NCBI GenBank assembly: GCA_904420005.1
Contig: CAJFTT010000021.1
Span: 22,538 to 86,537 of the forward strand
Direction: 5' to 3'
Source of the DNA: Candidatus Tabaqchalia intestinavium
GTDB lineage: Bacteria > Bacillota > Clostridia > Oscillospirales > CAJFTT01
Length of the DNA: 64,000 nt
A model generated the notes under the pieces. It ran no database searches. It was given only the letters and a program-made list of their open reading frames with translations, and was not told the origin of the DNA. The position numbers were made by a program, and so were the translations under genes. Below are positions 3,695-40,623 of the stretch, piece by piece. Position 1 is the first letter of the stretch. Each line of letters opens with the position of its first letter.

Positions 3695-3955
3695 GATAAT
3701 GCTTGTGTGCATTCGTCTGAGTTTTGGCTCTGCAGGACAACGAAACCACAACATGGCACACCCTGATTTCTATGTCCTTTGTTCAAGCCAGCGCATGGCG
3801 TCTCCGCCATTTCGCGGCAACAGTCCGCATCCCTTGCAGGAGCCTCGCCTACCGGACGGCACGATCACTTGCATTTTTTGCACTTGTCAAGTCTTTGCCC
3901 CGCGCACAGGCAGGCCAAGCAGAAACATTGCTTCGCGTTTCATGCCCCGCGCAGC

Positions 3956-5707: not shown

Positions 5708-5777
5708 AACCACATGATAATCGCGTGGTTTTCGATATACAAAGAGAGGAGCAATGAAAGTTCATCGCTCCTCTTTT
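5708..5777. repeat. Two-hairpin 3' module, copy A (also at 55270)
   Basis: Contains the hairpin AACCAC...GTGGTT (5708-5730), a linker TTTTC..ATAC.AA, and a second 14-bp stem (5745-5758 with 5761-5774) followed on the plus strand by CTTTTACTCTTATTCA. The same order of hairpin, linker, second hairpin and CTTTTA.TCTTAT.CA is found at 55270-55352, although the second stem has a different sequence there. The conservation outside the stem suggests a mobile or duplicated terminator-like module. On the minus strand it marks the 3' end of the structured RNA starting near 6151. Confidence 0.6.
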
Positions 5778-6152
5778 ACTCTTATTCACTTGTCTGGAGG
5801 GGATTTCCGCCCTCCGCATGTTACTTCTTTGGACCGTCCTCCGACGCTTTGAGTTCCAAACGTCTCATCAAACGTCCCATGAGCAGAGCCTCCTATATTT
5901 CCTCAATATAGAAATCCCTCTTAAAATCAGGCGGGGAATCCACCCTTCGAGGAAAGCATCCCGCTCACACCGCGCCGACTGGTTATTTCCCTGAAAATCA
6001 AACCAACCGTTTCAAACTTGGATCCTTTGGTCAGGCCACCGGTGTGAGCCCGCAAACGCTCTCCATTTCAGAACAGTACACTGGACTCACCCCTTTCTGA
6101 AATTCAATCCTCTGGAAGGCTGCCACTCTGCAGCACCCTTTCCTTGATTGCA
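5740..6152 (-). ncRNA. Candidate structured leader or non-coding RNA with an internal small ORF
   Basis: A consensus promoter at 6158-6186 starts a minus-strand transcript near 6151 that runs into hairpins at 5745-5774. The first ~270 nt contain several paired elements visible by eye: CAATC/GATTG enclosing a GGAA..AGG..GCTGC hairpin, ATTTCAGAA pairing with TTCTGAAAT, a long-range GCTCACACC/GGTGTGAGC pairing about 80 nt apart, and CTATATT/AATATAG immediately before AGGAGG. A 19-codon ORF follows. Composition is less GC-rich than the surroundings. It could be a known structured RNA class that I cannot name with certainty (a raiA-type motif is one possibility to test), or a cis-regulator of the small ORF. 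Confidence 0.6.
5821..5880 (-). CDS. 19-residue basic small protein downstream of structured RNA
   Basis: The frame reads MGRLMRRLELKASEDGPKK then TAA, with AGGAGG 8 bases before the ATG, the best ribosome binding site geometry in the region. The RBS directly follows a 7-bp hairpin (CTATATT/AATATAG), so translation could be controlled by RNA folding. The N-terminal half is cationic and amphipathic, the C-terminal half charged. No similarity is recognised. It is the only ORF in a promoter-to-hairpin transcript of about 400 nt. It could be a genuine microprotein, a leader peptide or a chance ORF. Confidence 0.5.
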   Translation of the reverse strand: MGRLMRRLELKASEDGPKK

Positions 6153-6157
6153 TCTAC

Positions 6158-6186
6158 AGTTTAGCATGCTTTTTCGTGTTTGTCAA
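6158..6186 (-). promoter_or_regulatory. Predicted sigma-A promoter of the structured RNA
   Basis: Minus strand TTGACA, 17 bases, TAAACT. The perfect -35 and correct spacing give a transcript starting near 6151 that cannot serve any annotated long gene. It therefore defines the RNA/small ORF unit at 5740-6152. Confidence 0.8.
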
Positions 6187-31742: not shown

Positions 31743-31767
31743 ATCTTCCTCGCAAGAAGCCGCTGAA

Positions 31768-31902
31768 CCTTCTTCCATCCGGACTCACGCACGTCGTGCG
31801 GTCACCGTCGGTCCTGGATTCCAACCAGCGTCAGCTTTCGCTCGCGGACTCGTCGCTCAAGGCGCTTCACCGCCGGTGGGGAATTGCACCCCGCCCTGAA
31901 TT
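31768..31902 (-). ncRNA. FMN riboswitch (RFN element)
   Basis: Minus strand carries the RFN core in order: CAGGGCGGGGTGCAATTCC, CCACCGGCGGT, GAGTCCGCGAGC, CTGGTTGGAATCCAG-like variable arm, GACCGACGGT and GAGTCCGGATGG. It sits 120 nt upstream of ribU with a terminator between. Confidence 0.95.
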
Positions 31903-31908
31903 GAGTCC

Positions 31909-40321: not shown

Positions 40322-40615
40322 CCAAAAACAAAAAAGCCCTTGTCTCAGTTTCCACTGGGACAAGGGCTGTCGTTCAGCTCCTGCGGTACCACCCAAATTG
40401 ACGCGCCCCTTTCCGGACGCATCCGCTCCGCTCCGCGCACCATCATGCGCGCTTCCTTGGTAACGGGTGAAGCTCCCGTCGGGCACTACTGCGCATTCCT
40501 GCGGTTCGTCCCGCCCTCCTGAGTCCATTCAGCCGCCCCGCCCCGCTGCCTCGCACCAACCGGCAGTTCTCTGAACCGGGCAAACAGGAAGCTTACTCTT
40601 CTCAGTCATCGGTTT
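40322..40615 (-). ncRNA. T-box riboswitch, tryptophan specifier (trpB2 leader)
   Basis: Minus-strand leader with AAGAGTA in Stem I, a specifier loop CTGAATGGACTCA giving codon TGG (Trp) at about 40520-40530, and the T-box GGGTGGTACCGCAGGAG. The terminator is AGCCCTTGTCcCAGT pairing with ACTgaGACAAGGGCT (40335-40368), followed by TTTTTTTGTTTTTGG. It closely parallels the trpXYZ leader in layout and many sequence blocks. Confidence 0.94.
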
Positions 40616-40623
40616 TGTTTGAT

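Follow-up and report, generated by a model that had tools for sequence, protein, structure and literature searches.

Dual-function small RNAs (sRNAs), such as SR1/SR1P, RNAIII/delta-haemolysin, and SgrS/SgrT, are stand-alone structured RNAs with a short open reading frame (ORF) and a strong Shine-Dalgarno (SD) sequence; peptide coding in sRNAs has been surveyed (PMC5521070), as have structured RNAs (PMC8040213). In attenuators of the ermC and trp types, and at the rbf upstream ORF (uORF) of Staphylococcus aureus in a study of extended SDs and uORFs (PMC13009471), a leader ORF takes part in mutually exclusive pairings. The STAB-SD 5' stabilizers of Bacillus cry3A and its relatives (PMC4113751) carry an extended SD of the GAAAGG type close to the 5' end. 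Long, ornate, stand-alone RNAs of Firmicutes include OLE, ROOL, GOLLD, and raiA. Other stand-alone structured RNAs are 6S RNA and tmRNA, the latter holding a short ORF.

Oscillospirales count among the gut bacteria that are dominant and least studied. Here, we describe an intergenic element in a 64,000-nt stretch of DNA from Candidatus Tabaqchalia intestinavium (hereafter, the window). In the element (6186-5736, minus strand), a promoter is followed by a folded region, an ideal site for ribosome binding, an ORF of 19 codons, and lastly a terminator. It was not described in the literature covered by our text search; the supplementary tables of the surveys lay outside that search and could hold it as an unnamed candidate entry. 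Our best explanation, held tentatively and with slightly less than even confidence, is that it is one of two genome copies of a so far undescribed RNA family of Oscillospirales, in which stand-alone RNAs engage ribosomes and the 5' mini-ORF acts as a two-state switch.

Layout of the element

The element looks like a stand-alone transcription unit that runs from promoter to terminator (Table 1). Its sigma-70-type promoter had been proposed in an initial annotation of the window and is upheld by the match to consensus; transcription would start near position 6151 on the minus strand. Two promoter-like sites occur in a 901-nt region, compared with 0.4 expected from shuffles, and a promoter of the same type precedes the motif in the second genome copy and in relatives from families f13 and f23. 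Dense structure, another claim of the annotation, was borne out by the predicted fold of the 419-nt RNA (-150.3 kcal/mol; z = -3.63), which none of 100 shuffled sequences equaled in stability. The annotation had also listed a hairpin abutting an AGGAGG that serves a 19-codon ORF, and a terminal hairpin. Both are present (CTATATT/AATATAG with ATG 5880 and the 13-bp stem, respectively), though terminator-like sites are not rare by themselves (2 versus 1.1 expected). Absent from that description was the most telling part, namely ORF1 and its extended SD (SD1), AGAAAGGGGTGAGTCC; 20 nt 3' of the 5' hairpin, AGAAAGGGGUGAGUCC precedes the GTG of ORF1. SD1 forms a much stronger duplex with the anti-SD than does the SD of ORF2 (SD2) (-17.2 versus -10.2 kcal/mol).

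Table 1. Positions of features of the element in the window
Feature	Position	Strand	Basis or remark
Sigma-70-type promoter TTGACA-N17-TAAACT	6158-6186	-	10/12 matches plus TG of an extended -10
5' hairpin domain, CAAUC/GAUUG enclosing a CUGC/GCAG stem	6105-6150	-	Predicted fold
Extended SD1 AGAAAGGGGUGAGUCC (segment 1)	6083-6098	-	Anti-SD duplex, -17.2 kcal/mol
ORF1, GTG 6081 to TGA, 16 codons, MYCSEMESVCGLTPVA*	6031-6081	-	Reading frame and SD1
Segment 2, anti-SD GGGCUCACACCG within the ORF1 3' end	6040-6051	-	Pairs with segment 1 or 3
Segment 3, CGGUGUGAGC, rival of segment 1 for pairing with segment 2	5963-5972	-	P = 0.0055 versus shuffled linker
Hairpin CUAUAUU/AAUAUAG abutting SD2	5893-5911	-	Predicted fold
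SD2, AGGAGG	5889-5894	-	-10.2 kcal/mol; 8 nt before ATG 5880
Conserved hairpin AUGGG-ACGUUU-GAUG-AGACGU at ORF2 start	5860-5880	-	Pattern match and covariation
ORF2, 19 codons, MGRLMRRLELKASEDGPKK*	5821-5880	-	Resembles ORF2 peptides of the f1 paralog and f19
13-mer GAGGACGGTCCAA (ORF2 codons EDGP)	5829-5841	-	Common to L022, f22 L018, and f19 L037-L040
Hairpin GGAGGGCGGAAAUCCCCUCC	5796-5815	-	Counterpart in paralog L022, GAGGGACGGAAAUCUCCCUC
Predicted intrinsic terminator, 13-bp stem and U-rich tail	5736-5774 (stem, 5774-5745)	-	Sequence scan

A second copy and relatives in other families

The genome has a second copy (L022) on another contig, with its parts in the identical order, i.e., promoter, SD1, ORF1 (MVQSESSQIGGLRPAI), structured middle, AGGAGG, ORF2 (MKLMVAKRMNPMKDEDGPTIR), GGAAAU hairpin, and terminator. 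A search of the same genome with mismatches found no third copy. Whole-element blastn against 59 relatives gave only 24- to 25-nt matches. One of them (L002) sits in unrelated, apparently coding sequence and was rejected as a relative; another (L003) was the starting point for a motif search. The 15-mer AAAGGGGTGAGTCCA was present in 16 of 394 genomes of the order (reversed control, 0), and a scan of contigs with a 20-mer yielded one locus, L004. Genome G001, from the same family as the window genome, does not have the element, and the nearest relatives are distant.

In f13, the element was carried by 24/25, 5/6, and 1/2 genomes of g93, g41, and g170, respectively. The f13 RNAs range from about 280 nt (g41) to 750 to 900 nt (g93) and contain little else that is coding. 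With a covariance model built on the 5' module, members were detected in 20 of 295 genomes of the order (E <= 0.05), and f13 g14, g51, and g105, as well as f23 and f26, were added. Because the window copy was part of the training set of this model, a profile from g93 (f13) only provided an independent test; the element was its sole match in the window (E = 0.012), and the paralog was matched at E = 7.6e-5. The membership of f19, L018, and L004 rests on short motifs. Beyond the order, 326 genomes of the class were searched for the exact 17-base motif, and 2 had it. Searches of phages, plasmids, and viral contigs yielded no member of the family, the viral matches being ordinary ribosome-binding sites or chance. 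Exact-motif matches at L010, L012, L015, L041, L044, L045, and L047 were ordinary gene ribosome-binding sites or palindromes and were excluded from the members. On these sequence comparisons, there is good support for the element belonging to a real, conserved family of RNAs.

Several other features were observed in these genomes. In g93 (L098-L120), the 750- to 900-nt structured RNA, which is absent from Rfam, has further covarying helices beyond the 5' module (11 doubly changed pairs by RNAalifold). More SD-plus-mini-ORF modules occur in tandem on one RNA in L147 (upstream of position 1501), L153 (~330 nt past the module), and L146, e.g., GTGGTGAATCCAATGGGCAGGTGA, AAGTGGTGAGTCCAATGGGCACAGGCGAATTGCTGTAA, and AAAGGGATTAATCCAATGTACTAC, and are like the f19 mini-ORFs MY*, MNK*, and MAY*. 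A AAAGGGGTGAGTCCAATG start with an ORF of 3 to 6 codons precedes secreted-protein-like genes in L016 and L021 (f19 g103), L020 (f24), and L133 (another order of the class), the ORFs being MGS*, MFS*, MVHL*, and MCQNQD*. The palindromic GAGGACGGTCCAAAGGACCGTCCTC copies in f26 (L045 and L047), one of them right after a tRNA, are probably repeats resembling terminators that have no relation to the element.

A conserved hairpin at the start of ORF2

The pattern ATGGGN{5,7}TGATGAG, which was chosen after both sequences had been seen, occurs once in the 64-kb window (5880-5864) and was absent from all of 100 shuffles. In the corresponding hairpin, AUGGG-N6-GAUG-N6, 95% of the cells were paired across ten distinct sequences, and five of six pairs were doubly compensated (0/500 shuffles). 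The most conserved 25-nt block of the f13 RNAs, CCGAUGGGCAUACUGAUGAGUAUGG, matches the ORF2 start of the window. In the window lineage, this hairpin coincides with an ideal SD and ORF2.

ORF2 could be read in another way, as the second cistron of a short bicistronic mRNA in which ORF1 is a leader peptide, ORF2 encodes a functional microprotein of ~20 amino acids, and structure only tunes translation or stability. The SD of ORF2 is ideal, and the paralog retains both ORF2 and the AGGAGG. In f19 (L037-L040), a stand-alone RNA with the mini-ORFs named above also has two tandem ORF2-like genes (MRLLRIKETSEDSPPNG and MIRVKIKESSEGCPPETIRP), whose copies gave a dN/dS-like ratio of 0.29 in frame versus 2.26 and 1.71 out of frame, i.e., purifying selection. 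Among the ORF2 homologs, such in-frame selection was seen only in f19. The window ORF2 is collinear with the f19 peptides and ranks fourth of 280 small ORFs in similarity to them. This likeness and the shared 13-mer are suggestive of ORF2 being a gene, not proof. In g93 and g41, however, the ORF after AUGGG varies from 8 to 42 codons and has no clear SD, yet the hairpin is kept. Because the ORF of g93 is neither conserved nor preceded by an SD, the RNA hairpin is what g93 keeps. Further points against a bicistronic mRNA are that an ORF2 profile search of 295 genomes recovered only its input lineages and no further family, and that the 280- to 900-nt f13 RNAs code for little else. No Pfam or NCBIfam entry matched the peptides of the element. 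We consider the bicistronic mRNA improbable, if the most serious of the competing explanations.

The initial annotation had raised a leader controlling a microprotein as one possibility. A functional microprotein is not sustained across the family, most relatives keeping the ORF2 start as an RNA hairpin and not as a peptide. As for control by the leader, the predicted accessibility of SD2 was 0.22 in the free RNA versus 0.21 or 0.08 with ORF1 occupied. Since translation of ORF1 does not open SD2 in these computed folds, simple control of ORF2 of the ermC type is unsupported.

Predicted competing pairings around ORF1

The final codons of ORF1 (GGG CTC ACA CC) are complementary to SD1. They are also one arm of the long-range pairing that the initial annotation had given as 9 bp, which is real and in fact spans 10 bp (6049-6040 with 5972-5963). 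Since the ORF1 3' codons are thus the shared arm for SD1 and the long-range helix, pairings 1:2 and 2:3 are mutually exclusive. The SD1/anti-SD complementarity exceeded that of shuffled ORFs in the window (P = 0.016), L022 (P = 0.02), and g93 (P of about 0.003); L004 uses a different anti-SD, CUCCUUUC (P = 0.06). The competitor pairing 2:3 likewise stood out from shuffles in the window (P = 0.0055), L022 (P = 0.011), and g93 (P = 0.006 to 0.01), and no competitor segment was found in L004 (P = 0.66). Segment 3 of g93 is GCGAGTTCC in 23 of 23 sequences checked, one of which has a single change. In folds of successively longer prefixes, 1:2 is predicted to flip to 2:3 once segment 3 is included in both copies from the window genome; in g93, the two states were near balance or sequence dependent, with no clean switch. 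The g93 SD1 also has an upstream partner, GGGCAAACACC.

Helix 1:2 (9 bp) was 94.3% paired over 36 distinct sequences and contained 4 doubly changed cells in an alignment that was fitted to the model and hence is biased towards structure; none of 500 shuffles reached either value. When the partner was slid by 1 to 3 columns, at most 51% was paired. The compensatory changes include G-C to A-U (L117 and L151), U.G to U-A (the window and L145), and U.G to C-G (L153). An unfitted alignment gave a similar picture, with one doubly changed pair. The SD1/anti-SD helix shows some compensatory change. Together, these alignments show that the 5' module (a strong promoter, the extended SD1, and a short ORF1 complementary to SD1 at its 3' end) and the AUGGG-N6-GAUG-N6 hairpin recur across genera and families with compensatory changes at the sequence level.

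An ORF of similar length occupies the place of ORF1 in the f1 paralog and in f13. In g93, no coding selection on ORF1 was detected (in-frame ratio of 0.63 to 0.87, with out-of-frame ratios alike), and we therefore do not argue for ORF1 as a peptide gene. The frame of the anti-SD is shifted in g105. Given both observations, ORF1 is best seen, on sequence grounds, as a translated leader. The SD of ORF1 and its own 3' end are the best-conserved switch-like element of the RNA. The unselected ORF1 peptide would also suit a trans-acting RNA whose 5' SD binds the 30S subunit and shields the 5' end from RNases in the manner of STAB-SD, with neither ORF mattering; the extended SD is very close to the 5' end, and no neighbor gene is conserved. 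All lineages nevertheless keep ORF1 open, with an anti-SD in its 3' end and compensatory changes, none of which SD protection needs, and we judge this explanation decidedly unlikely.

Neighboring genes and known RNA classes

No neighbor gene was constant among the families compared. An iron-type alcohol dehydrogenase gene is divergent at most f13 loci examined, mraZ is found in f22, and tRNA-Val/ppdK is found in f19. In three f23 genera (L148, L150, and L152), the element is divergent to a 6S RNA gene several hundred bases away. These arrangements bear on whether the element is a cis-acting leader (riboswitch or attenuator) for a downstream gene. Its bistable structure and leader ORF resemble those of attenuators; a leader ORF with an SD and mutually exclusive pairings, the hallmarks of leader-peptide attenuators, were both found, and about 0.9 kb further downstream, the same strand carries a gene for a secreted protein (4804-3956). 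However, the predicted terminator (5774-5745) and a long gap intervene, and the neighbors differ by family. The terminator and the lack of a constant neighbor make it unlikely that the element is a riboswitch or attenuator acting on a gene next to it, and we assign a cis-acting leader only a slim chance.

No Rfam 15 family matched the window element or its relatives at gathering scores, consistent with the undescribed structured unit that the initial annotation had envisaged; at E = 10 with permissive filters, only chance-level matches were obtained, at the terminator hairpin and other short stretches. The same scan recovered known elements elsewhere in the window. These include a T-box leader (40353-40618, minus strand) and an FMN riboswitch (31766-31907, minus strand), both above the gathering score, and an M-box (magnesium) riboswitch (3701-3863, minus strand) just over it. 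The M-box lies upstream of ruvC-ruvA-ruvB (3317-1040, same strand) with no obvious transporter gene in between; ruvCAB would be an odd target if the M-box controls these genes.

Three known classes were tried and rejected. The tmRNA model (RF00023) matched a true tmRNA at G000:C49 (146 bits) and the 6S RNA model (RF00013) matched a 6S RNA at G000:C16 (57.1 bits), in neither case with the element among the matches; in each of the six genomes tested, an ordinary tmRNA and an ordinary 6S RNA were located elsewhere, above the cutoff. A hammerhead ribozyme, considered for CUGAUGAG in f13, does not have the CGAAA partner, and g14 members have CGAUGGG. A short ORF in a structured RNA and two paralogous copies would also suit the mRNA of a type I toxin, or a tmRNA or 6S RNA that has degenerated. 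This is highly improbable, given that the examined ORF2 peptide is charged and has no membrane segment, that tmRNA and 6S RNA are encoded elsewhere, and that Rfam gave no match. Lastly, each of these parts is common when taken singly (short ORFs, hairpins, SD-like words), and terminator-like sites are not rare, but a chance assembly of promoter-, helix-, and ORF-like sequence is refuted by the paralog, the cross-family conservation, and the covariation (both in helix 1:2 and in the GAUG hairpin), and its probability is close to negligible; the parts are jointly unlikely by chance, as the initial annotation had held. Overall, the structured, undescribed unit of that annotation stands, and the conservation and covariation that it had called for are both present in relatives; its leader-controlled microprotein is a candidate only.

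A proposed translation-dependent switch

In the two-state switch that we favor, the extended SD1 at the 5' end would load ribosomes, and segments 1 and 3 would compete for the anti-SD segment 2 in the end of ORF1. Early in transcription, before segment 3 is made, pairing 1:2 would hide SD1; once segment 3 has been made, 2:3 would free SD1 for ribosome loading. A ribosome that is translating ORF1, or terminating there, would cover segment 2 and hold the RNA in the other state. As a ribosome at the ORF1 stop would cover segment 2 and free segments 1 and 3, at least two translation-dependent states are expected, and the RNA would thereby report translation status. The output would be the folded RNA acting in trans. 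A small basic peptide encoded by ORF2 would be an added output in this lineage, with an ideal SD and a start inside the second conserved hairpin. We infer that a trans-acting role through the GAUG hairpin, with or without the ORF2 peptide, is the reading that fits all lineages, and the family may sense or control translation.

A wider proposal, to which we give a low probability, is an order-wide class of trans-acting RNAs in which a self-sequestered mini-ORF engages ribosomes and reads translation status, and the AUGGG-GAUG hairpin is the effector site. In some lineages of such a class, several tandem mini-ORFs of 2 to 7 codons would engage ribosomes, and the class would be unlike tmRNA, 6S RNA, and known attenuators. 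A fast-evolving yet near-universal RNA (24/25 genomes of one genus) that is not in Rfam would be a new regulatory RNA family. With its mixture of covarying structure and ribosome-binding mini-ORFs, the element would test how translation of tiny ORFs switches an RNA.

Comparison with known systems

With tmRNA and 6S RNA, the element appears to share a stand-alone structured form and, for tmRNA, a short ORF; unlike it, both are encoded elsewhere in the same genomes, and it scores with neither model. The f13 members (280 to 900 nt) would be long, ornate, and stand-alone like OLE, ROOL, GOLLD, and raiA, although no Rfam model matches the element or its relatives; SD/ORF modules are not known to define those families. 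The leader ORF in mutually exclusive pairings is common to attenuators and the element, which differs in that it has no linked downstream gene, the SD that is sequestered belongs to the leader ORF, and SD2 is not predicted to open on ORF1 translation. Like dual-function sRNAs, the element looks like a stand-alone structured RNA with a short ORF and a strong SD, but it bears no sequence relationship to them, and of its two ORFs, the first comes with an SD that is self-complementary. Finally, an extended SD of the GAAAGG type close to the 5' end is common to the STAB-SD stabilizers and the element, but in the element this SD leads into a genuine start codon and an ORF that, at its end, can pair with the SD.
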